NCBI RefSeq assembly: GCF_028618575.1
Contig: NZ_JAQITA010000004.1
Coordinates: 62,001-126,000 of the forward strand
Source: Bartonella sp. ML70XJBT.G
GTDB lineage: Bacteria; Pseudomonadota; Alphaproteobacteria; Rhizobiales; Rhizobiaceae
Length of the DNA: 64,000 nt
Reading direction: 5' to 3'
Every line of letters begins with the position of its first letter. Position 1 is the first letter of the stretch. The notes under the pieces are model-generated. The model was given only the letters and a program-made list of their open reading frames with translations, ran no database searches and had not been told where the DNA came from. This document shows positions 18,506 to 33,623 of the stretch, in pieces. Position numbers and translations under genes: made by a program.

Positions 18506-18666
18506 TTGTTTTAAAAAATTGTTTGCTTATTTCTTCAATTGTATTGTTAAAAATTACAACTATTCTTAAAGAAACAATTTATTTTTTCTTTGAACTGTTC
18601 AGTATTAAAATAAAATGCTTACAGCCTATTAAATATGAAGAAACCACATCATTGAATCGAAATAAT

Positions 18667-21600
18667 ATGGTATTCACAATATCCTGCATAAAGTATCTTT
18701 TTTCTCAACAAACTAAGATTCATCATCTGACTCAAACCAGTGCTCCTCTTCGTTCAACTTATAAATCGCAGGATGAACTTTATAAATTAGGCTATGACAT
18801 AGCTTCTAAAAAAGAAATCCTCCTTCCTGAATATAAGGGAGAAAATAATTTTCACAAAAGGTTGAATGAAAATGCTAAACTTATTCTCCGTGCCTTTCAC
18901 ACCTGTTATATTGCTGCTCGAAACGATGAAACCATGGCGCCATCTGCTCAATGGCTGCTTGATAATCATTATACCATTGACAAAACGATACAACAACTCC
19001 GTCGTAACTTATCTAAGTCTTTCATTAAGCAACTTCCTCTTTATGAACAAAGGGAAGACATACCACGCATTTTTGCGTTAGCTTGGCTTTATATTGCCCA
19101 TACGGACAGTATATTTTCACAAAAAACACTCACGGCTATGATCAATGGGTTTCAAGAAGTTTGTGCTCTCAAAATTGGTGAATTATGGGCTCTTCCTTCT
19201 GTTATACAGATGTTGCTCATCGAAAATGTCCGTCGTCTTGCACTGCGTATTGAACAAACACGCACTATGCGCCAGCTTGCCCATAAAGTTGCTGATAAAA
19301 TTTCCCTCACTGATAATGAAACAAAATTACATACTCTTTTTACTCGTTATACACCATTCACTGTTTATCCAAGCTTTTCAGCCCATTTATTCTATCGTCT
19401 GCGCAGTGCATCTGTGGATTCAACAACCGCATTAAATTGGCTTGAACAGCAATTACAAAACCAAGGCAGTAACCTCGAAATTGCCACAACTGATGAACAT
19501 ATACGCCAAGCAGCAGATGGTGTCACCATGGGCAATATTATCCGTGCACTTAAAGCACTTGGTGATGTTGATTGGGCAGTATGGTTTGAAACTGTTAGTT
19601 CTGTAGACTCTATTTTGCATAAAAATAGTGATTTTTCTAAAATTGATGCTCATTCACGCAATATTTATCGACAAGTGATCGAAAAAATCGCTCGCTTTTC
19701 ACCTCTTAGTGAACAGGAAGTTGCACGAAAAGCGATAGAAATAGCACGTTCTCCTTCTGAAAATACACCTCTGCACTCCTCTGTTGGGTGGTACCTTATT
19801 GGTGATGGACGGCATAGTTTTGAAAAAGCATGTGGCTATACTTCACCTTTGCTTATAAAATGGGCACGGTTTTTCTGCTGTTCAAAGATAAGCATTATTA
19901 CTATTCCTGTTTCTTTTCTCACGCTTATCCTTTTGCTTGCAATCTACGCTCTTTTACAGACATCTGAAACACTCTGGATAACGCTTCTTTTCACTGCTTT
20001 AGCGCTGTTTCCTGCTATGGATGCTGCTTTTGCTTTTTTCAACACTGTTGTTTCATGGATTATTCCCTCAAAACAACTCATTGGTTATGAATATAAAAAG
20101 GGGATTCCGGAACATGCACGCACAATGGTTGCTGTGCCTACTTTAATCACCTCACGCGACTCTATTGATGAGCAAGTGCGCAATCTTGAAGTGCACTACC
20201 TTTCCAATCCCAAAGGCGCCATCCATTTTGCAATCCTCACAGATTGGGTAGATTCTCCCTTAGAGCAAACGCAAGATGATCTTGACTTGCTGTATTACGC
20301 GCAAAAGAGTATCGATAAACTTAATTGTCGTTATCATCGTGATGATATCCCTCTTTTTTTCCTTTTACACCGTCGGCGTCTTTATAATCCCAGCGAAAAA
20401 TGCTGGATGGGATGGGAGCGAAAGCGTGGTAAACTTCATGAACTTAATCTGTTATTAAGAGGTGATAAAAACACCAGCTTTTATCCTCCTAACCCACATC
20501 TTCCCATGGATTGCCGTTTTGTTATGACGTTGGATGCAGATACGCGCCTGCCCCCTGAATGTGTCACAAAACTTGTTGGAAAACTGAACCATCCGCTCAA
20601 CCACCCCACTTTTGATCCTCTCCATGAAAAAATTGTAAAAGGCTATAGCATTTTACAACCCCGTATTACGCCTTCTCTTACCACAGGAAAAGAAACATCC
20701 ATTTTGCAACGGGTTTTTTCTACCAATCGCGGTATTGATCCTTATGTCTTTGCTGTTTCCGATACCTATCAAGATCTTTTAGGAGAAGGAACTTTTATCG
20801 GCAAAGGTCTTTATCATATTGATGCATTTCAGCAAGCACTTAACGGCAAAATCAAAGAAAATACTGTTCTTAGTCATGACCTTTTAGAAGGAGGATATGC
20901 ACGTACCGCATTGGTGAGTGATGTAGAAGTCATTGAGGATTATCCAATAGCTTATAATGTTGATGTTGCGCGTTATCACCGTTGGGTTCGCGGAGATTGG
21001 CAACTCTTGCCTTATCTCTTTTGTCCTCGTCAAATTAGTTCTACGACACGTTGGAAAATACAGGATAATCTGCGCCGTTCTCTCACACCACTGATGTGGC
21101 TCATTGCTGCCTTTGCTGGATGGTCTCTTTTGCCATTAAAGAGTGCAATTATTTGGCAAACATTCTTGTTCTTTAGTCTCTTCATTGCACCAATTTTAAG
21201 TATCTTACAAACGCTTGTTCCATCCAATATTGGTGATTCTTTACGTGGATATTTTCAATTAATTTTCAATAAAACGACCCTAACTGGCGCAAATATATTT
21301 CTTAAAATGACATTTCTTGCTCATTCAGCTTATTTTATGACTGATGCAATTATCCGCACACTTTATCGCATGACGATTTCAAAACAGCACTTGCTTGAAT
21401 GGAAAACCTCTGCTGCAACAAAATCTATTCCCAATAGCCTTCGCTTCTCTATCTTTACAATGTGGCCAGCAACACTTATGGGTATTCTTGCTATAGCACT
21501 TCCTTTCTTTTCCCATAATTTTGCAAGCTTTATTGCCTTACCGTTTGGTCTGACATGGTTTTTTTCACCCTTCATTGCATGGATTGTGAGTCAACCTTCA

Positions 21601-24600
21601 ACATTTCAAGATACTCTTCATAGTTCTTTTGAAGATAAAAAAACACTACGCTCTATTGCACGACAGACATGGCTTTATTATGCAAGTTTTGTCAATGCGC
21701 AAAGCAATTATTTGCCCCCCGATAATTTTCAAGAAGACCCTGAACCTCTGATTGCACAACGCACATCTCCGACCAATATTGGGCTTTATCTTCTTTCTGT
21801 TATTGCTGCGCGTGACTTTGGCTGGATTAGTTGTCAAGAAACCATTACCCGCATTGAATGTACACTACGTTCTCTTGCTAAAATGAAAAAATTTCGTGGA
21901 CATCTTTATAACTGGTATGAAACAGATACACTCAAACCTCTTCTACCAACTTATGTATCAACCGTTGATTCAGGAAATCTTGCTGGCCATTTACTGACCC
22001 TTGCTTCAGCTTTAAGAGAATGGGCGGAAAAACCTCATGTTTTTATTCAAAGTGATCTGGACGGCTTGCGTGATGTTTATGCTCTTTTGGAAGAAACTGT
22101 CAAAGAAATTCCGGATAATCAACCTATTTTACATCCCTTACGTCAACAAATCGAAAAGTACATCAGCAATTTTGATCATTGTATGAGTACTGTCGTAGAA
22201 ACACCAAACACCATCATTTCTCAGCTTACAGACCTATCCTTTATCGCGCATGATCTTATACACTTAATAGATGAACTTCATCAAAAAGTTCAAACGAAAA
22301 AATCTTCTCAAACACTCTCTTGGGCTCAATGTCTTTTAGAAACCTGTAACGCTCACCATCATGATGCTACTGCTGGCTATGACAGTGAAAAATTACGTAA
22401 AACATTGAATAGTTTAGCTGTAGAAGCGCGGCAAATTGCCTTGGATATGAAATTTGACTTTTTAGAACAACCTGAACGTCATCTTTTGTCTATTGGGTAT
22501 CGTGTGCAAGAAAATAAACTCGATGAAAATTGTTATGATTTACTCGCCTCAGAAGCGCGCCTTGCAAGTCTTTTTGCCATCGCAAAAGGCGATATAAAAG
22601 TAAAACATTGGTTTCATCTTGGTCGACTCCTCGTCCCCATTGGTTGGAAAGGTGCATTGTTATCATGGTCTGGCTCCATGTTCGAATATCTCATGCCTTC
22701 CCTTGTTATGCACGAACCTTTGGGATCTCTCCTCGATCAAACCAATCGACTGATTATTCATGATCAAATACAATACGCCTATAAACGTGGAGTCCCTTGG
22801 GGAATTTCAGAAGCAGCATTTAACGCTCGTGATCAGTTAATGAATTACCAATATGCTCATTTTGGTGTTCCAAGCCTCGGACTCCAACGTGGTCTCTCAC
22901 GCAATACCGTTATTGCTCCCTATGCTAGTCTTTTAGCAGCACAATATGTTCCTGACCAAACCGTGACCAATTTAAAACATCTCCGTGATCTTGGAGCTTT
23001 AGGAACATATGGTTATTACGATTCTCTTGATTTCACCCCCTCACGCGTGAAAACAGGAGAAAAATACGCTGTAGTACGCAATTATTATGCGCATCATCAT
23101 GGCATGTCCATTCTTGCTATCGATAATGTTATTTTTCAAGGGCGGATGCGTGATCGCTTTCATAGTGACCCAATCATTGAAGCAATCCAATTTTTATTAC
23201 AGGAAAGAGCACCACATCAAATTCCTATCATTCATAGCAAAGTTATTCATCGCATGCGTAACAATTATCAAGAATTCAACGATGCTCCTTTGCGTATTAT
23301 CAAAAACCCGCTGCTTAAACCACGTGAAACTTTGCTCTTGTCCAATGGTTCCTATTCTACAATGTTGACAGCCAACGGTTCTGGTTACAGTCGTTGGCAT
23401 GATTATGCGATTACACGCTTTATTCCCGATGCAACAGAAGATCAACAAGGAACTTTGTTCTTTCTCCGTGATATAGAGAATGGTCGTTGGTGGTCTGTGA
23501 CTGGTGAGCCAACACGCGTTGTCGGAGAAGATGCAGTCTGCATTTTTACAGATGAAAAAGCTGAATATACAAAAATGGTTGATGGTATCAAATCAACACT
23601 TGAATGTCTTATTACCTCTGAAGGATGTGGTGAAGGCAGACGTCTTCAACTTATTAATACAACAAACAAAGACCGTATCATTGAAGTGACCTCTTATGGT
23701 GAACTCGCCCTCGCAACAATGGATGCAGATCAAGCACATCCTGCTTTCTCGCGGATGTTTATAGAAACAGAAATTGCTAACGGGAGAAGGACAATTTTTG
23801 CTAAGAGGCGCAAACGCTCTCCCCATGATCCTGAAATCCACATTGCCCATTTTGTGACTGGTGATAATATCCAAGAAACAGAAGCTGAAACGGATCGCTT
23901 GCAGTTTATTGGTCGAGGACGATCTATTCATCGACCTGCTGCATTTGACCACAATGCGCATTTTCGCAATAGTCAAGGTTGTGTGCTTGATCCCATTATC
24001 TCACTGCGATGCCGTGTAAAAATTCCAGCACATGAAAAAGTTGAACTGATTTTTTGGACTTTTGCTGCTCATGCAAAAGAAACACTGCACAATTATATTA
24101 AACATTATCGGCAGCCCAATATATTCCAGCAAGAATTTTCAATGGCATGGACACGCTCGCAAGTCTCGCTCTATCAAAGTGGTATCAGCCTTAAAGAAGC
24201 TATTACCTATCAAAAATATGCAACACCACTTATTTATCTTGATCGAACATGGCGTCTTTCTTCAAAAAACTTAGCAAAAAATCTTGGTAAACAATCTGAT
24301 CTTTGGCCAATGTCACTTTCAGGAGACATTCCGCTCTGTCTTCTCAGATTAGATAATGAGGGAGATATCACTGTTCTACGTGAACTTCTCAAAGCACATG
24401 AATATTGGCGTATGCGTGGACTTATTGTTGATCTTGTCATTCTTAATGAACAAGCATTTTCCTACATACAAAATACACAACATGCTATTGAATGGGTATG
24501 CGAATCCTATCGCCATCACATTCATGATACAGATGAACGCCAACATATTTTCACTCTTCGGCGTGATCAAATGAATGAACAGAGTTTTCAAACTCTTCTT

Positions 24601-27243
24601 GCTTCAGCACGCATTATTCTTGATGCTCAAAATGGATCTTTGTCTGAACAACTCAAACAACTTGACAATAATGACTTTGATCTCACCATCCATAAAGAAC
24701 ATCAAGAATCCTATTATCAATTAAACGAGCAAAAACATCATCAAGAACGACAAAGTATCATATCAAAGGAGCAAAGCCTCTTTGCTTCTCTTGGTCTTAT
24801 CGGTCAACAAAAAATTTCACCTCTCCCCATTGATGGAAATGACCTAAAATATTGGAATGGTTATGGTGGATTTAATCATCATAATCATTATGTGGTACGT
24901 CTTCATGGGCATACCACCACACCACAACCATGGATTAACATCATTGCTCATAAAAACTTTGGCTTCCATGTCTCTGCTGAAGGAGCGCTCTTTACTTGGG
25001 CAAATAATAGCCGTGATTATCAACTAACCCCTTGGAGTAATGATCCCATTTCTAACCGTCCAGGAGAAGCACTTTATCTTGTAGACCGCCTTTCTTTAAA
25101 ACGGTTCTCACCCGTTTCTGCCGTTGAATGTGATGAAAATGTTGTCTATGAGGCTTGCCATGGTTTTGGATTTTCAACCTTTAAATCTACACATACAGAG
25201 ATCGCCTTAGAGCTCACCCATATACTCGATCCAGAAAAACCAGTACGTCTTTCACGACTCACCCTTAAAAATAACGGGAAAAAATCACGCAGTTTACGCC
25301 TTTATAATTATGTTGAATGGGTTTTGGGCAATGTCCGTACAAAATATGCACCTTTCATACTCCCCTATTATGATCCTATACGTGGTGCACATTTTATCCA
25401 AAATCCCTACCACATCGACAAATCTCAACAAGTGGCATTTTTATCTGCTTCCCAATTACCAACAAGTACGACTACTGATCGCACTGAATTTATCGGTGTA
25501 ACGGGAACAGTGATACATCCTCACGCGATCCGTAAAGCCAATGCTCTTTCAAATACAGTTGAAGCAGGATGTGATCCTTGTTCAGCATTTTCCTATGATA
25601 TTGATCTTCTCCCAGGACAAACAAAAGAAATCGTTTTCTATCTTGGCAATGCTGAAAATAGGCAAGAAGCGGAAAATTTACTAGACAAGGTGCGTGCAAG
25701 CGATTTTGAAATTTTGCTCACACAACAAAAACAGCAATGGGATGATTTTGTTTCTCCATTCCAAGTTAAAACACCTGACCCCTCTTTTGATCTTATGGTC
25801 AATCATTGGCTTCCTTATCAAATTTACGCTTGCCGTATGATGGCACGCGCTGCCTTTTATCAAGCAAGTGGTGCATTTGGCTTTCGCGACCAGTTACAAG
25901 ACAGCTTGTCCTTATTATTATTGAACCCGAAACTGGCGCGTGAACAATTGTTAAACGCCGCAGCACATCAATTTCTCGAAGGCGATGTACAACATTGGTG
26001 GTTGCCTGATACAAACGCCGGTGTTCGCACGCGTATTTCTGATGATATTGTTTGGCTTGCTTATGGCACAGCACTTTATGTCAACACCACTGGTGATAGC
26101 ATATTTCTTGATACCCCTATTGCTTTTATTGAAGGAGATTCTCTTAACAATGAACAACAAGACGCTTATTTTAAGCCCATACAATCCTTAAAGGTTGCAA
26201 CAATTTATGAACATTGTGCTTTGGCTTTAGATCTTGCTATCAAACGCTGTGGACCACACGGACTTCCTCTTATTTTAGGCGGCGATTGGAATGATGGCAT
26301 GAATTTGGTAGGTATTAAAGGAAAAGGGGAAAGCACGTGGTTGGGATGGTTTCTTGGTACTACACTCCAAGCATTTATCCCCCTTGCCCAAAAACGGAGT
26401 GACAACACCCGTGTTGAGACATGGCGTGCATATCTTGAACGTTTAACCAAATCCTTAGAAGAAAACGGTTGGGATGGTGCTTGGTATCGGCGTGGTTATT
26501 TTGATGATGGTACACCTCTTGGCTCTCAAATCAATGATGAATGCAAAATTGATACCATTGCTCAATCTTGGGCTGTTATTTCGCAAATGGCATCGCTTGA
26601 GCGCCAAAAACAAGCAATGGCATCAATGCTTGAACAGCTGTATGACGAAAAATGCGGTCTTATACGTCTTTTCTGGCCACCTTTTGATAAATCTCCTCTC
26701 GAACCCGGTTATATAAAAGGTTATCCTCCAGGTATTCGAGAAAATGGTGGTCAATATACGCATGGTGCCATTTGGAGTATTTTGGCGCTTGCCCAAATGG
26801 GTGAAAGCGATAAAGCTTATGCTTTATTTTCTGCCATTAACCCGATTACCCACGGGCAAAATCCTGAAATTTATCGTGTGGAACCTTATGTTATGGCCGC
26901 AGATATTTACGCCGTTGAACCATATCGTGGACAAGGAGGTTGGACATGGTATACAGGCTCAGCAGGCTGGTTCTACCGCGCCGCAACACAAGCCATTCTT
27001 GGGATTAATCGTCAAGATGATCAATTATTCTTAGAGCCACATTTACCTTCTTCATGGTCTGAATATGAAGCAAAAATGAAATTTTATGATGCCATTTATA
27101 CCATCACCGTAAAATGGGGAGTTGAAAATATGCTTCATGTTGATGATAAAAAATATGCTCATACTCAAGCAAGAATAAAATTGGAAAAAACAGGAAAACA
27201 TGAAATCATATGCGTTCTTCAATCCTCAAAACAGAAAAGATAA
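18667..27243 (+). CDS. ndvB: Cyclic beta-1,2-glucan synthase (NdvB/ChvB type)
   Basis: A giant inner-membrane enzyme that builds, cyclises and trims periplasmic beta-1,2-glucan from UDP-glucose. From the chosen ATG it has 2858 residues, close to the roughly 2830 of rhizobial NdvB. The frame stays open to 18523, but those 48 extra codons run up to the rpsA terminator. Counting from 18523: a paired hydrophobic region lies at about 455-515. The GT84 domain has DAD at 671-673 and an HRWVRGDWQ (QxxRW-like) motif near 820. Further membrane segments occupy about 857-1010. The long C-terminal half carries GH94 phosphorylase modules with GGDWNDGMN at 2586-2594, whose second Asp is the expected catalytic acid for chain-length control. 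No frameshift is seen, so it is probably functional in osmotic adaptation and host interaction. Confidence 0.93.
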   Translation: MVFTISCIKYLFSQQTKIHHLTQTSAPLRSTYKSQDELYKLGYDIASKKEILLPEYKGENNFHKRLNENAKLILRAFHTCYIAARNDETMAPSAQWLLDNHYTIDKTIQQLRRNLSKSFIKQLPLYEQREDIPRIFALAWLYIAHTDSIFSQKTLTAMINGFQEVCALKIGELWALPSVIQMLLIENVRRLALRIEQTRTMRQLAHKVADKISLTDNETKLHTLFTRYTPFTVYPSFSAHLFYRLRSASVDSTTALNWLEQQLQNQGSNLEIATTDEHIRQAADGVTMGNIIRALKALGDVDWAVWFETVSSVDSILHKNSDFSKIDAHSRNIYRQVIEKIARFSPLSEQEVARKAIEIARSPSENTPLHSSVGWYLIGDGRHSFEKACGYTSPLLIKWARFFCCSKISIITIPVSFLTLILLLAIYALLQTSETLWITLLFTALALFPAMDAAFAFFNTVVSWIIPSKQLIGYEYKKGIPEHARTMVAVPTLITSRDSIDEQVRNLEVHYLSNPKGAIHFAILTDWVDSPLEQTQDDLDLLYYAQKSIDKLNCRYHRDDIPLFFLLHRRRLYNPSEKCWMGWERKRGKLHELNLLLRGDKNTSFYPPNPHLPMDCRFVMTLDADTRLPPECVTKLVGKLNHPLNHPTFDPLHEKIVKGYSILQPRITPSLTTGKETSILQRVFSTNRGIDPYVFAVSDTYQDLLGEGTFIGKGLYHIDAFQQALNGKIKENTVLSHDLLEGGYARTALVSDVEVIEDYPIAYNVDVARYHRWVRGDWQLLPYLFCPRQISSTTRWKIQDNLRRSLTPLMWLIAAFAGWSLLPLKSAIIWQTFLFFSLFIAPILSILQTLVPSNIGDSLRGYFQLIFNKTTLTGANIFLKMTFLAHSAYFMTDAIIRTLYRMTISKQHLLEWKTSAATKSIPNSLRFSIFTMWPATLMGILAIALPFFSHNFASFIALPFGLTWFFSPFIAWIVSQPSTFQDTLHSSFEDKKTLRSIARQTWLYYASFVNAQSNYLPPDNFQEDPEPLIAQRTSPTNIGLYLLSVIAARDFGWISCQETITRIECTLRSLAKMKKFRGHLYNWYETDTLKPLLPTYVSTVDSGNLAGHLLTLASALREWAEKPHVFIQSDLDGLRDVYALLEETVKEIPDNQPILHPLRQQIEKYISNFDHCMSTVVETPNTIISQLTDLSFIAHDLIHLIDELHQKVQTKKSSQTLSWAQCLLETCNAHHHDATAGYDSEKLRKTLNSLAVEARQIALDMKFDFLEQPERHLLSIGYRVQENKLDENCYDLLASEARLASLFAIAKGDIKVKHWFHLGRLLVPIGWKGALLSWSGSMFEYLMPSLVMHEPLGSLLDQTNRLIIHDQIQYAYKRGVPWGISEAAFNARDQLMNYQYAHFGVPSLGLQRGLSRNTVIAPYASLLAAQYVPDQTVTNLKHLRDLGALGTYGYYDSLDFTPSRVKTGEKYAVVRNYYAHHHGMSILAIDNVIFQGRMRDRFHSDPIIEAIQFLLQERAPHQIPIIHSKVIHRMRNNYQEFNDAPLRIIKNPLLKPRETLLLSNGSYSTMLTANGSGYSRWHDYAITRFIPDATEDQQGTLFFLRDIENGRWWSVTGEPTRVVGEDAVCIFTDEKAEYTKMVDGIKSTLECLITSEGCGEGRRLQLINTTNKDRIIEVTSYGELALATMDADQAHPAFSRMFIETEIANGRRTIFAKRRKRSPHDPEIHIAHFVTGDNIQETEAETDRLQFIGRGRSIHRPAAFDHNAHFRNSQGCVLDPIISLRCRVKIPAHEKVELIFWTFAAHAKETLHNYIKHYRQPNIFQQEFSMAWTRSQVSLYQSGISLKEAITYQKYATPLIYLDRTWRLSSKNLAKNLGKQSDLWPMSLSGDIPLCLLRLDNEGDITVLRELLKAHEYWRMRGLIVDLVILNEQAFSYIQNTQHAIEWVCESYRHHIHDTDERQHIFTLRRDQMNEQSFQTLLASARIILDAQNGSLSEQLKQLDNNDFDLTIHKEHQESYYQLNEQKHHQERQSIISKEQSLFASLGLIGQQKISPLPIDGNDLKYWNGYGGFNHHNHYVVRLHGHTTTPQPWINIIAHKNFGFHVSAEGALFTWANNSRDYQLTPWSNDPISNRPGEALYLVDRLSLKRFSPVSAVECDENVVYEACHGFGFSTFKSTHTEIALELTHILDPEKPVRLSRLTLKNNGKKSRSLRLYNYVEWVLGNVRTKYAPFILPYYDPIRGAHFIQNPYHIDKSQQVAFLSASQLPTSTTTDRTEFIGVTGTVIHPHAIRKANALSNTVEAGCDPCSAFSYDIDLLPGQTKEIVFYLGNAENRQEAENLLDKVRASDFEILLTQQKQQWDDFVSPFQVKTPDPSFDLMVNHWLPYQIYACRMMARAAFYQASGAFGFRDQLQDSLSLLLLNPKLAREQLLNAAAHQFLEGDVQHWWLPDTNAGVRTRISDDIVWLAYGTALYVNTTGDSIFLDTPIAFIEGDSLNNEQQDAYFKPIQSLKVATIYEHCALALDLAIKRCGPHGLPLILGGDWNDGMNLVGIKGKGESTWLGWFLGTTLQAFIPLAQKRSDNTRVETWRAYLERLTKSLEENGWDGAWYRRGYFDDGTPLGSQINDECKIDTIAQSWAVISQMASLERQKQAMASMLEQLYDEKCGLIRLFWPPFDKSPLEPGYIKGYPPGIRENGGQYTHGAIWSILALAQMGESDKAYALFSAINPITHGQNPEIYRVEPYVMAADIYAVEPYRGQGGWTWYTGSAGWFYRAATQAILGINRQDDQLFLEPHLPSSWSEYEAKMKFYDAIYTITVKWGVENMLHVDDKKYAHTQARIKLEKTGKHEIICVLQSSKQKR

Positions 27244-29361: not shown

Positions 29362-29748
29362 CTACGAAGATGGACGCGTTAAGATATAAAGAACAATAAA
29401 CAGTAAAAGTGCAGCAACCAATAAAGCAAGCCACAAAGCAGGATGCGTTATCACTAAAAAAGATAAAAAACCACCTGCTATACTCACCAATGCCAAAATT
29501 TTAACAAATGTGGAAATAGCTCTCTTTTCCTCCCATTGCTTAATGGGTGGGCCAAAAACGCGATGATTATTCAGCCAACGATGAAAACGTGGCGATGAAC
29601 GAGCAAAACACCATGAAGCAATTAATAAAAACGGCACAGTTGGCATAATAGGTAATACTATACCGATAATTGCCAATATAATCATTGCCCAACCTGCTAC
29701 ATAATAGCAAATACGCAAGGGGTGAGATATTTTAAAATCTTTTTTCAT
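29362..29748 (-). CDS. ybaN: DUF454 (YbaN-like) inner-membrane protein
   Basis: A 128-residue protein of the YbaN/DUF454 family, whose function is not established. Two to three hydrophobic segments are visible (about residues 16-45 and 85-125). Between them is the family core: GIVLPIMPTVPFLLIASWCF followed by RSSPRFHRWLNNHRVFGPPI. It lies downstream of the metal-importer operon on the same strand but beyond that operon's terminator, so it is probably transcribed separately. Confidence 0.87.
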   Translation of the reverse strand: MKKDFKISHPLRICYYVAGWAMIILAIIGIVLPIMPTVPFLLIASWCFARSSPRFHRWLNNHRVFGPPIKQWEEKRAISTFVKILALVSIAGGFLSFLVITHPALWLALLVAALLLFIVLYILTRPSS

Positions 29749-29930
29749 CCTCTCGTACTATTTCTCTCCATATTTTCCTGCTTTTGCATGCTCTAGAGCA
29801 CAATCATTTATACGACTTTATACGCAAGTGTATTTTCTTCGATAACTTCTTTTAAAGCAAAAACAGCTTACGCAATATGATGATCATTTTTAAATTTTCA
29901 AGAAATATGAATAAATTTTTAGAAAAAGAA

Positions 29931-29966
29931 AAAATAAAAAGGCTGCAGAATAAATCAATGCAGCCT
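29931..29966 (-). terminator. Intrinsic terminator downstream of the metal importer operon
   Basis: An 8-bp perfect stem (aggctgca / tgcagcct), loop of 11, then a T-rich tract on the minus strand. It lies about 160 bp after the last permease stop codon and closes the operon and the candidate sRNA. Confidence 0.85.
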
Positions 29967-30060
29967 CTTAGTTACGAATGCAGTGTTGGGAGGAGAATAC
30001 ATACTGCATTCATTTGCCAGATGTTAGGAGGAAAATAATCTAGCGAGGTGCTTTCTAGTT
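29931..30060 (-). ncRNA. Candidate small RNA with two anti-Shine-Dalgarno loops, in the 3' UTR of the metal importer operon
   Basis: Read on the minus strand. Hairpin 1 is CTAGAT / ATCTGG with loop tattttcctcctaac. Hairpin 2 is a perfect 9-bp stem, GAATGCAGT / ACTGCATTC, with an 18-base loop containing ctcctccc. A third hairpin, aggctgca / tgcagcct with a following T-rich tract, is an intrinsic terminator. Loops carrying CCUCC/CUCCUCCC (anti-SD) in tandem hairpins ahead of a terminator are the defining layout of the alphaproteobacterial cuckoo (ar14-like) and CcsR-type sRNAs. The 5' end is unknown. With no obvious promoter close by, processing from the importer mRNA is likely. Confidence 0.6.
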
Positions 30061-30122
30061 AAAACAAACATGAGAGACAATACACAAAAATGCATGGCTG
30101 ATATGCATGAACTTTAGAAATC

Positions 30123-31028
30123 TCAAATTTCCTGAACCGTAGCGCGACGAAAAAAAACTGACATGAAAATCGCAATAAAAATCAATGTCAAAATCAATAC
30201 GATCGTAGAAGCGGAATCAGAACCAATAAACAAACTGAGATAAATTCCTAAAAAACCAGAAAAAGCTGCAACAAGTATAGCAATCACCAACATAAAAGAA
30301 AATCGCTTCGTAATAAGATAAGCGATTGCTCCTGGTGCTATAAGTAAAGAAATAACCAGAACAATACCCACAGCTTTCAAAGCTGCAACAATTGTGAGAG
30401 AAATCATTGTTAAGAGAGTATAGTGAAGTAATGATATTCGCAATCCCATAGCACGACCTTGAACGGAATCAAAAATATACAGCATAAAATCGCGCCATTT
30501 TGCTCCTAAAATAAAGGTAACAACAGCAGAAATAATTGCCGTCTGTGTAATATCAAGCCAGTTAACACCCAACAAATTACCAAATAGAATATGATTCAAA
30601 TCTAAACTGCTATAAATAGATGTGGCCAAAACAAGCCCTAAACCAAACATCGATGAGAAAACAACGCCCATCACCGTATCCTGTTTGATCCGACTATTGC
30701 TTCCTAAAAAACCTGTTGCAAGCGCACAAATCATACCTGCGACAAAAGCTCCGCAAGTAATCAAAGTCATGGTAATATTTTCTGAACGCATATGCTGAAG
30801 CCAAGCAAACGGTAAAGAAGTCAAAAATGCTATCACCCACGGCGTCGTCATATAACCCACAACAACACCAGGAAAAACAGCATGAGAAATGGCGTCGCCT
30901 AACAGTGCCCATCCTTTCAAAATCAGAAAACAAGAAAGCATCGCCATAGGAATAGAAAGGATCATGACAATAAGCATGCCTTTCAACATAAAAGAAAATT
31001 GAAAAGGAAGTAGTAATTGATCAATCAT
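30123..31028 (-). CDS. sitD: Mn/Fe ABC transporter permease (second permease)
   Basis: A 301-residue integral-membrane permease of the ABC-3 (zinc/manganese/iron chelate) family, with about eight hydrophobic segments. It has the family features of a cytoplasmic loop with GDAISHAVFPGVVVGY near residue 40 and a C-terminal LLIAPGAIAYLITKRF motif. It pairs with the upstream permease, which is related to it. Its start overlaps the previous gene by 4 bp. In Bartonella this system is usually named yfeABCD and elsewhere sitABCD. The operon's mRNA continues into an unusual structured 3' UTR. Confidence 0.93.
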   Translation of the reverse strand: MIDQLLLPFQFSFMLKGMLIVMILSIPMAMLSCFLILKGWALLGDAISHAVFPGVVVGYMTTPWVIAFLTSLPFAWLQHMRSENITMTLITCGAFVAGMICALATGFLGSNSRIKQDTVMGVVFSSMFGLGLVLATSIYSSLDLNHILFGNLLGVNWLDITQTAIISAVVTFILGAKWRDFMLYIFDSVQGRAMGLRISLLHYTLLTMISLTIVAALKAVGIVLVISLLIAPGAIAYLITKRFSFMLVIAILVAAFSGFLGIYLSLFIGSDSASTIVLILTLIFIAIFMSVFFRRATVQEI

Positions 31029-31891
31029 GACAATATCACACCTTTTTTGGCCGCATTTATACGCAAACGTGCAGCAATAAACCCGTGTTTAGGAGCAAAA
31101 ACAAAAGCTAACATAAATAAAAATGCTTGAAAAAGCACAACAACACCACCTGTTTGCGCATTTAAAAAGTAACTCACATAAACACCTAATACACTTGTGA
31201 CGGTCCCGATTATAACTGCAATGATCAAAACATTTACAAAGCGATCACTTAAAAGATAAGCCGTTGCCCCAGGCGTCACCACAAGGCAAATGACCAAAAA
31301 TGCTCCAACTGTTTGCATAGCAGCAACAGTACAAGCAGCAAGCAAGGTGAAAAAGAGAATCTTTAAAAACTTTACATTCAGTCCAATGGCACGCGCATGT
31401 GTCTCGTCAAATAAAGAAACAAGAAGATCTTTCCATTTTAACAGCAATATAAGTAAAGAGAAAAAACCAATAAAAGCCAATTGGATAATATCTGATGAAC
31501 TCACTGCTAAAATATTTCCTAAAACAATTGTATCAATATTCACAGCCATTGGCTTTAATGATTTAAGAAACAACCCAAAAGCAAAAAAAGAAGAAAAAAT
31601 AAGACCAATAATCGTATCTTCTTTGAGTTTTGTCCGTTGATTAAAAAACAGCATCGCTGCTGCTGCAAGCCCACCAGAAAAAAAAGCTCCAAGCGCAAAA
31701 GGTAAACCTAAAAGGTAAGCCCCTGCTACACCAGGAACAATCGAATGGGAAAGCGCATCACCAATAAGCGACCAACCTTTTAACATCAAAAACGCAGAAA
31801 GAAAGGCACAAACACACCCAACTAATCCAGAAACCCACATCGCATTAACCATGTACTGATAGCTCAGTGGCTCAAGCAACCAAGAAATCAT
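31025..31891 (-). CDS. sitC: Mn/Fe ABC transporter permease (first permease)
   Basis: A 288-residue ABC-3 family membrane permease with about eight predicted membrane spans. The hallmark [17 protein letters not shown] lies near residue 42 and the [14 protein letters not shown] segment near 225, parallel to those in the partner permease. This suggests an old gene duplication. Both ends overlap neighbouring genes by 4 bp, indicating translational coupling in a four-gene operon. Confidence 0.93.
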
Positions 31892-32718
31892 GCAACGTGC
31901 TCCATTCTTTGAATATTCTCATGAAGAGCAGAGCGGTTTGCCCCCGTGAAACCATCATTTTTGTTCACAGCTTGAAGATCAAAAATATGATGATGCAAAG
32001 CACCACCAAAAGTTTTTTCCAGATTTTCCTTTGTAAAGACGGTTTCAGTTAACCCAGAAGCCAAAACTGTTCCCTTGATTAAAACTGTATGGTCACAAAA
32101 CTCACGAATAGAACCTAAATTATGCGTAGAAACTAATATCACTGCCCCCTCTTTACGAAGATCCTGTAATAAAGCAATGATTTTATCTTCTGTTGTGACA
32201 TCAACCCCTGTAAATGGCTCATCTAATAAAATTGCTTTTGCCTGCTGGGCAAGAGCGCGTGCTAGAAAAACACGCTTCTTTTGCCCACCAGAAAGTTCGC
32301 CAATTTGGCGCTTGGCAAATGCCAACATATCAACCCGTTCTAAGGCAACACGAACTGCTTCATAATCTCGTGAGCGTGCATAACGAAAGAAATTCATATG
32401 ACCATACCGCCCCATCAAGACAACATCTTCAACGAGAACAGGAAAATTCCAATCAACATCTTCACTTTGGGGAACATAAGCAATAAGGTTTTTTTTCAAA
32501 GCTGTATCAACAGGCAAACCAAGCATGCGAATTTTCCCTTTTGAGGGGCGGACAAACCCCATAATAGCTTTAAATAACGTTGACTTCCCTGATCCATTCA
32601 CGCCAACCAATGCCGTAATAGAACCTGTTGGACTTTCAAAATTCACTTCACGTAAAGCCGTATGTCCATTACGATAAGTTACTGTTACCCCTTGGGCAAA
32701 TATTCCAGATCCCGTCAT
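31888..32718 (-). CDS. sitB: Mn/Fe ABC transporter ATP-binding protein
   Basis: The 276-residue nucleotide-binding subunit that drives the importer. Visible motifs in order are Walker [10 protein letters not shown] (about residues 39-47), the Q-loop in VPQSEDVDW, the ABC signature LSGGQKKRV, Walker [13 protein letters not shown], and the switch histidine in STHN. All key residues are intact. It overlaps the substrate-binding gene and the first permease gene by 4 bp each. Confidence 0.95.
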
Positions 32719-33623
32719 TGGCTTTTTACTCCCTCTAATAAGGCACTGCTAATACGCCCACTTGTGACGCGTAATAAATCAATATAGGTTGGTACTTCAC
32801 CATTTTTCTCACTCAGAGAGTCAACATAAAGCACACCACCGTATTTAGCCCCTGTTTCTCTGGCAACTTGCTTAGCAGGCGCTGGAGAAATAGTGCTTTC
32901 AGAAAAAACGGCATGGATATTGTATTTACGAACCATATCAATAACATGCTTAACCTGCTGTGGTGTTCCTTGCTGATCCGCATTAATGGGCCATAAATAA
33001 AGTTCTTTTAGATCAAAATCACGCGCTAAATAGCTAAATGCACCCTCACTGGTGACAAGCCAACGCTTATCTTGCGGTACTGCTTCTAATGCAGTCCTGA
33101 TTGGGTCAATCGTTGCGCGAATCTTCTGCTTATAAATTTCAGCATTTTCTTTATAAATAGCAGCATGCTCAGGATCATACTTTACAAAAGCATCGCGAAT
33201 ATTATCAACGTAGATCAAAGCAGAAGTGGGTGACATCCAAGCATGAGGATTGGGCTTGCCGCTAAAGGGACCTTCACCAATTTTAATGGGTACAACACCT
33301 TTGGAAACAACCACACTTGGAACATCCTTGATATTTTGAAAAAACTTTTCAAACCAAAGCTCCAAATCTAATCCATTCCACAAAACAAGATTGGCTCCTT
33401 GTGCGCGCATAAGATCGCGAGGAGTGGGTTGATATTCATGAATTTCAGCACCTGGTTTCGTGATCGATTCAACATCAGCAGCATCACCCGCTACATTGCG
33501 CGCCATATCAGCAATGATAGTGAATGTCGTAACAGCTTTAAATTTACCTGCACATAAGGCAAAATTGGGAGCAAAAAAAACAAGACTCCCAAAAACTATC
33601 GTGAAAAACGTCCTTACCTTCAT
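32715..33623 (-). CDS. sitA: Periplasmic Mn/Fe-binding protein of ABC importer
   Basis: A 302-residue cluster A-I (ZnuA/PsaA/SitA class) solute-binding protein. A signal peptide covers roughly residues 1-24 and ends near FALCAGK. Metal ligands typical of the family are visible: His in [13 protein letters not shown], His in NPHAWMSP, a Glu in SEGAFSY/FSEST and an Asp near YVDSLS. The lack of a His-rich loop argues against zinc specificity and for Mn2+ or Fe2+. It is the first gene of the operon, and a Fur-family-like palindrome lies about 38 bp upstream of its start. Confidence 0.93.

Follow-up and report, generated by a model that had tools for sequence, protein, structure and literature searches.

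An ar14-kind anti-Shine-Dalgarno small RNA behind sitD in Bartonella, probably an autonomous gene switched by LsrB

NfeR1 (SmelC397/Smr14C2) of Sinorhizobium meliloti is the founding member of the ar14 family of small RNAs (sRNAs). It is encoded by a stand-alone gene, comprises 123 nt and consists of hairpins with C/U-rich anti-Shine-Dalgarno (aSD) loops and a terminator. Its redundant aSD loops are described as silencing mRNAs including ntrB, with tested targets and with Hfq-independent repression at ribosome-binding sites. According to the published account, the regulator LsrB binds the NfeR1 promoter at -72 to -57, where the site is written TGCA-N6-GCAT, and NfeR1 is undetectable without LsrB (PMC10746234). 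The CcsR1-4 RNAs of Rhodobacter sphaeroides (RSs0680a, with the DUF1127 protein CcaF1) are aSD hairpin RNAs acting in stress as well, and are reported to derive by processing from the ccaF1 3' UTR (PMC8625941, PMC10253847). A different family is represented by AbcR1/2 (ar15), also sRNAs of the aSD type, of which AbcR1 is LsrB-controlled and encoded beside lsrB.

From Bartonella bacilliformis, an RNA named BbsR14 has been detected by RNA-seq and is described as two stem-loops of nearly identical TTCCTCCTAA, with higher levels at pH 8 than at pH 6; the authors speculate on indiscriminate repression by this RNA (PMC7717549). The terms 'ar14', 'Rfam' and 'LsrB' are absent from the main text of that paper. 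In the open-licence literature, among the matches listed, this was the sole report of a matching RNA, and no prior link of a Bartonella RNA to ar14, cuckoo, LsrB or NfeR1 was found. Two further reports touch on the genus: the Bartonellaceae are listed as one of the families represented in a group of seven models, the two aSD models among them (PMC3927594), and the sRNA MH_s11 is stated to have Bartonella homologues (PMC5596092).

Here, we present an analysis of a 64,000-nt stretch of a Bartonella contig (the window), in which an sRNA of the aSD type had been predicted behind an operon for metal import. The locus joins three subjects that we found nowhere connected, namely BbsR14, the ar14/NfeR1 family and LsrB/VtlR, which matters for host association in the Rhizobiales.

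Hairpins behind sitD and their relation to ar14

The locus and its neighbours are arranged as follows (window coordinates).

29362-29748, minus strand: DUF454 protein, the next gene downstream on the same strand
29936-30046, minus strand: small RNA of the ar14/NfeR1 anti-SD type with estimated ends, about 111 nt (Rfam RF02344, fold, covariation)
29969-29936, minus strand: intrinsic terminator, hairpin and T tract; stem AGGCTGCA/TGCAGCCT at 29966-29940
30013-29974, minus strand: hairpin 2, 11 bp including a perfect 9-bp GAATGCAGT/ACTGCATTC; aSD CTCCTCCC in the loop (29995-29988)
30044-30016, minus strand: hairpin 1, 7 bp GCTAGAT/ATCTGGC; TTTTCCTCCTAAC in the loop, which reads TATTTTCCTCCTAAC; CCTCCT at 30031-30026
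30123-31028, minus strand: sitD-like metal ABC permease, directly upstream (NCBIfam, below curated cut-offs)
31025-31891, minus strand: sitC-like metal ABC permease (NCBIfam, below curated cut-offs)
31888-32718, minus strand: sitB-like Mn/Fe ABC ATPase (NF011630 above cut-off, the only sit gene passing)
32715-33623, minus strand: sitA-like metal-binding protein (NCBIfam, below curated cut-offs)

Inspection of the sequence confirmed two consecutive hairpins with aSD loops, followed by a terminator with T tract, exactly where the original prediction had placed them; hairpin 1 starts 78 nt past the sitD stop codon (30125-30123). The region 29920-30070 (151 nt) folds with -37.8 kcal/mol as compared with -21.4 +/- 2.9 for shuffled sequences (z -5.65; 0/200 shuffles as stable), and a z-score of -5.85 was obtained for 29932-30046. 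Hairpin 2 is strong on its own (z -4.62, 0/200 shuffles equally stable) and hairpin 1 modest (z -2.06, 10/200). Because CTCCTCCC occurs four times in the 64-kb window against 0.53 expected, the octamer by itself is not diagnostic; what is diagnostic is the combination of two aSD loops and a terminator with a full-length match to the Rfam ar14 model.

This model (RF02344) gave the best match within 29800-30200 at permissive settings. The match spans 30051-29934, including all three hairpins, and covers model positions 1-123, the whole model, with E 4.5e-5 for 401 bases, but its score of 35.2 bits lies below the gathering score of 58.8 bits. With Rfam at curated thresholds, tRNA alone was reported for the window and no ar14; the search of the window's whole genome with the ar14 model returned E 6.1e-5. 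The family plan, with a terminator as the last of three hairpins, is present in the window RNA. Of the CCUCCUCCC aSD motifs characteristic of all three ar14 loops, the window RNA carries CCUCCU in loop 1, CUCCUCCC in loop 2 and none in loop 3. In nine homologues from a gut clade, which we take to consist of honeybee-gut bacteria (B. apis, B. apihabitans, B. choladocola and relatives), CCTCC is found in all three loops, the terminator loop included, and homologues of this clade exceed the gathering score. Judged by synteny, the window copy is thus a divergent ar14 homologue and not a curated-threshold member. The ar14/'cuckoo' type assigned beforehand is right in kind, with the sub-threshold score and the missing third aSD loop as caveats.

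At E 0.01, ar14 matched 36 of the 61 genomes searched, nine of them above the cut-off. Among these 61, the 37 genomes of the genus contributed 26 matches, eight of which exceeded the cut-off (72.7-87 bits, every time at the sitD locus), and the 11 genus genomes with no match at this E value were all recovered by DNA similarity; none of 14 control genomes matched. Across the order, 78 of 249 genomes matched at E 0.001 and 41 did so above the cut-off. Searching by DNA similarity with the locus itself gave matches in 63 of 71 genus genomes, some of them only short (52-54 bases in G003 and G008; 38 bases in G084 and G085, perhaps another locus). All eight genomes without such a match possess several LysR genes; the ar14 model did match four of them (G006, G007, G018, G021).

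The B. bacilliformis homologue is very probably BbsR14, a published and expressed but unclassified RNA: two copies of TTCCTCCTAA at a spacing of 35 nt are confined to this locus both in G009 (the contig of B. bacilliformis Ver097, as in L087) and in G063. By this sequence-based identification, the discrete short RNA expected from the locus would have an RNA-seq counterpart in B. bacilliformis, as reported in PMC7717549. Unlike the window, B. bacilliformis has a tandem second copy (palindrome and sRNA) about 260 nt behind the first, in which the aSD of loop 2 is broken.

A second ar14-like RNA was seen in seven gut-clade-type genomes among the 37 searched. One such copy (L221, G021:C1:2503885-2503991) is located directly behind a DUF1127-like frame and close to a purH-like gene (visual assignments in both cases), with no LsrB consensus within 140 nt upstream.

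Conservation of stems and loops in Bartonella

Forty-seven named Bartonella loci found via sitD (L055-L101, nine of them gut-clade) were aligned with the window, giving 48 rows of which 43 are distinct. The other lineages are presumably 'blood-borne', as we call them here, and the order in which the lineages branched is likewise our assumption. The structure derived from the window is paired in 98.0% of cells, against 20-47% when partners are slid by 1 to 3 columns. Two-sided changes affect 7 of 25 pairs in 19 cells, counts that are inflated and not independent events since the rows share ancestry; neither number was reached in any of 500 shuffles. Further pair types are not special, as 55 of 500 shuffles reach their count, and 16 of the 43 distinct rows lack one and the same pair of hairpin 2. 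For the window-derived structure, paired cells amount to 99.7% in hairpin 1, 95.6% in hairpin 2 and 100% in the 7-pair core of the terminator. The consensus fold of the alignment recovers the identical three helices. The stems predicted from the window are therefore conserved across Bartonella with compensatory changes in seven pairs.

The loops differ in how well the aSD motif is kept. CCTCC is present in loop 1 of 47 of the 48 rows, in loop 2 of 20 and in the terminator loop of nine, all gut-clade. The sole row with a broken loop 1 is L068 (B. vinsonii berkhoffii), in which loop 2 is intact. Among the non-gut rows, 39 with the window, CCTCC is found in loop 2 of 11, and the remaining 28 show a C tract of variable length instead. 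Although absent from many similar loci, CCTCC occurs in loop 2 of the window, L058 and L068, and therefore the loss was repeated or is not strictly one-way. On the simplest reading of the alignment, the number of aSD loops would have decreased from three through two to one, a direction taken from the three-loop family plan and not from a tree; such a series would amount to a natural test of the number of modules that an RNA of this type needs. The C tract, at 30002-29985 in window coordinates and at the homologous positions elsewhere, is a possible slippage locus; in the window itself, CTCCTCCC was kept or regained.

A palindrome, LsrB and the origin of the transcript

Two further elements lie between sitD and hairpin 1.

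30052-30081, minus strand: putative core promoter, TTGT-type -35 and AT-rich -10; weak, placement inferred, start estimated near 30045
30091-30107, minus strand: palindromic element TGCATATCAGCCATGCA, between the sitD stop and hairpin 1

This likely promoter and regulator site (30107-30052) lies mostly outside the region of the original prediction, 29931-30060. Read on the plus strand, the palindrome is GCATGGCTGATAT (30092-30104), a full match to the LsrB/VtlR consensus, given for LsrB binding as GCAT-N3-TG-N3-T (PMC8844928). The VtlR motif published for Brucella, CAATGCAGCCATGCA (PMC12595884), has 12 of 15 bases in common with CATATCAGCCATGCA, as counted by eye. The TGCA/GCAT half-sites are spaced N10 here as opposed to N6 in the published NfeR1 site, and the element would be located at about -62 to -46 from the estimated start, compared with -72 to -57 for NfeR1. 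A sigma-70 consensus scan indicated no promoter at 30052-30081, and the consensus scan, with a loop limit of 8 bases, no terminator either. Column identity is 0.89 at 30081-30074 and 0.75 at 30060-30052.

Across the 39 non-gut rows, mean column identity amounts to 0.93 within the palindrome and to 0.68 in the stretch separating it from the sitD stop, and the palindrome is followed by five invariant T. A relaxed form occurs in 46 of the 47 named loci; L068 fails, L079 has an extra match, and L087 (B. bacilliformis) has a second one preceding its tandem sRNA copy. The LsrB consensus is found in 45 of the 47, located 71-74 nt ahead of the first aSD, with L079 and L087, the latter from the species with expression data, one base off. 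The consensus is short, with 19 matches within the 64-kb window, and 81 other matches were counted in 324 kb of Bartonella loci (about 0.025 per 100 nt). The 17-mer TGCATANCAGNYATGCA has no other match in the window's genome at 0 or 1 mismatch except in an identical contig copy.

The gut clade reveals which neighbour the palindrome belongs to. In its nine loci, and in G003, a glycosyltransferase-25 gene (Pfam PF01755 in L090) is situated between sitD and the palindrome; the 38 named loci outside this clade lack it behind sitD. In all nine, about 940 nt separate the sitD stop codon from the first aSD, and the spacing of the palindrome is preserved relative to the sRNA and not to sitD; G003 looks alike.

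The genome of the window contains one LysR-substrate gene (L188), whose protein is similar over its full length to PDB 9HH1, the best PDB match (E 7.6e-136). This entry is LsrB of A. tumefaciens, and lsrB is described as lying beside trxB in Rhizobiales (PMC11975290). L188 adjoins trxB and its product keeps both conserved cysteines (C144 and C273 of LsrB), and by these sequence features the sole LysR-type regulator of the genome is an LsrB orthologue. Exactly one LysR-substrate gene is present in 57 of 71 genus genomes and 4-15 in the other 14; in the two single-LysR genomes checked (G000 and G065), the gene is an LsrB orthologue beside trxB. A 78%-identical LsrB orthologue of the gut-clade genome G062 is located between trxB and an ar15/AbcR match. 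AbcR (ar15) scores above the cut-off in the same 14 multi-LysR genomes and below it in 12 others; in the window's genome it has no match at E 0.01, nor beside lsrB.

We therefore consider the RNA to be probably the product of an autonomous, LsrB-switched gene for an aSD sRNA of the ar14 (NfeR1/'cuckoo') kind. This reading draws on the structure, the family relationship, the conservation, the palindrome with its fixed spacing and the single LsrB orthologue, all established at the sequence level. Inferring from NfeR1 of S. meliloti and from the published work on LsrB, LsrB (VtlR), a probable thiol redox sensor, would bind the palindrome at 30107-30091 and activate the promoter just downstream of it. 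The resulting RNA of about 111 nt would end at its own terminator, probably shared with read-through from sitD, and its C/U-rich loops would base-pair with target mRNAs at their Shine-Dalgarno regions and so prevent initiation, as reported for NfeR1. In comparison with NfeR1, the window RNA has the same plan of aSD hairpins and terminator with an LsrB-type site upstream, and differs in its two aSD loops, with none in the terminator, in its score below the gathering threshold and in its position behind sitD. An sRNA directly under LsrB would, if true, constitute a small redox-to-translation circuit.

The strongest alternative overlaps with this reading and holds that the RNA has both inputs, a primary LsrB-dependent transcript together with sit read-through and processing. 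We regard it as a possible though clearly less probable account. Promoter-like conservation is combined here with the lack of a strong sit terminator: the palindrome was considered as one and is not convincing, forming a six-pair stem of -4.2 kcal/mol (z -0.73, 41/200 shuffles as stable). As no strong terminator separates the two, read-through from sitD into the sRNA is likely, and a metal-linked secondary supply by this 3'-UTR route is possible. The arrangement in the gut clade, however, indicates that adjacency to sit is not required.

According to the mechanism originally proposed, the sRNA is 3'-UTR-derived: the sitABCD mRNA would be cut behind sitD, and the 3' end would act in trans at a level set by metal status. 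This we regard as unlikely, in spite of the missing strong terminator, of the position of the first-loop aSD (in a broken form in L068), which in each of the 38 named loci outside the gut clade follows the sitD stop codon by 84-94 nt on the sit strand, and of the precedent of CcsR1-4, which are reported to arise from the ccaF1 3' UTR in Rhodobacter. Against it stand the conserved palindrome, which tracks the sRNA rather than sitD, and NfeR1 with its own LsrB-dependent promoter, and we replaced the release mechanism by a probable LsrB-driven gene, retaining only the likely read-through. The Mn/Fe signal itself is not supported, given an LsrB-type palindrome conserved genus-wide and the indispensability of LsrB for NfeR1 in S. 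meliloti. Unlike in the CcsR type, the gene directly upstream of the window sRNA is sitD and not a DUF1127 gene, which is missing from the locus. Outside Bartonella, none of 33 sitD loci carries the aSD octamer CCTCCTCC on the strand of the sit genes (about 3 kb on each side; about 1.5 kb downstream in L113), which also argues against an origin from the sit mRNA. On the opposite strand it occurs in eight of the 33, including five Rhizobium loci (L105, L106, L107, L110, L113) about 700-800 nt behind sitD; an older sit linkage by way of these was rejected, as Rfam gives no ar14 in the eight loci at E 0.1.

A region serving merely as a strong sit-operon terminator, with loops conserved by descent and no function in trans, is very improbable: the terminator is indeed the best-conserved helix (column identity of its segment 0.97), but loop 1 is conserved as well as the stems (0.95), at least one CCTCC loop is kept in 48 of 48 rows, and NfeR1, which has the same plan, is described with tested targets.

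Among 33 ar14 loci outside Bartonella (L169, incomplete, omitted), an LsrB consensus lies at most 120 nt upstream in only six (L158, L159, L172, L173, L174, L176), a point against LsrB control, and a DUF1127-like frame, recognised by a loose text pattern, precedes 20; L174 alone has both. This distribution suggests two classes of ar14 loci, LsrB-type and DUF1127-linked.

Candidate targets and further observations

Duplexes of the loops with the start regions of sitA-D have energies of -3.1 to -10.2 kcal/mol (without shuffle control), and feedback on the sit genes was rejected since these values are unremarkable. AGGAGGAA is found 2-9 bases before an ATG at 13 places in the genome, two of which are the same place on duplicate contigs, as compared with eight for a reversed-pattern control. 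The only long frame opened among the 13 is virB10 (type IV secretion; L222:325-1503), whose AGGAGGAA Shine-Dalgarno sequence is fully complementary to part of loop 1. Of 25 virB10 loci, counting that of the window's genome, 17 retain this sequence (27 were fetched; L257, partial, and L261 were excluded). virB10 may be a target, as a lead only, because a strong Shine-Dalgarno sequence explains AGGAGGAA equally well.

More speculatively, in blood-borne Bartonella the RNA could be the remaining sRNA arm of a redox-to-translation switch, given a single LysR regulator, LsrB where checked, and an AbcR that is at best eroded. Its aSD modules would have been stripped stepwise, with three in the gut symbionts, two in some lineages and one in most of the radiation, and the lost module would have turned into a variable poly-C tract that could slip and tune loop 2 like a contingency locus. 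We put this forward tentatively, as an idea that is clearly less likely than not to apply.

In the ar14 search, the sole second hit in the remaining genus genomes was a contig duplicate of the window's genome (G000). At least 18.4 kb around the locus are present twice with 100% identity, on G000:C55 and on G000:C33, the window contig; this is probably an assembly duplicate and not a true second copy, and the listed contamination of this genome is 9.29%. Elsewhere in the window, a 2906-aa open frame on the plus strand (18523-27243) presumably resembles cyclic beta-glucan synthase.
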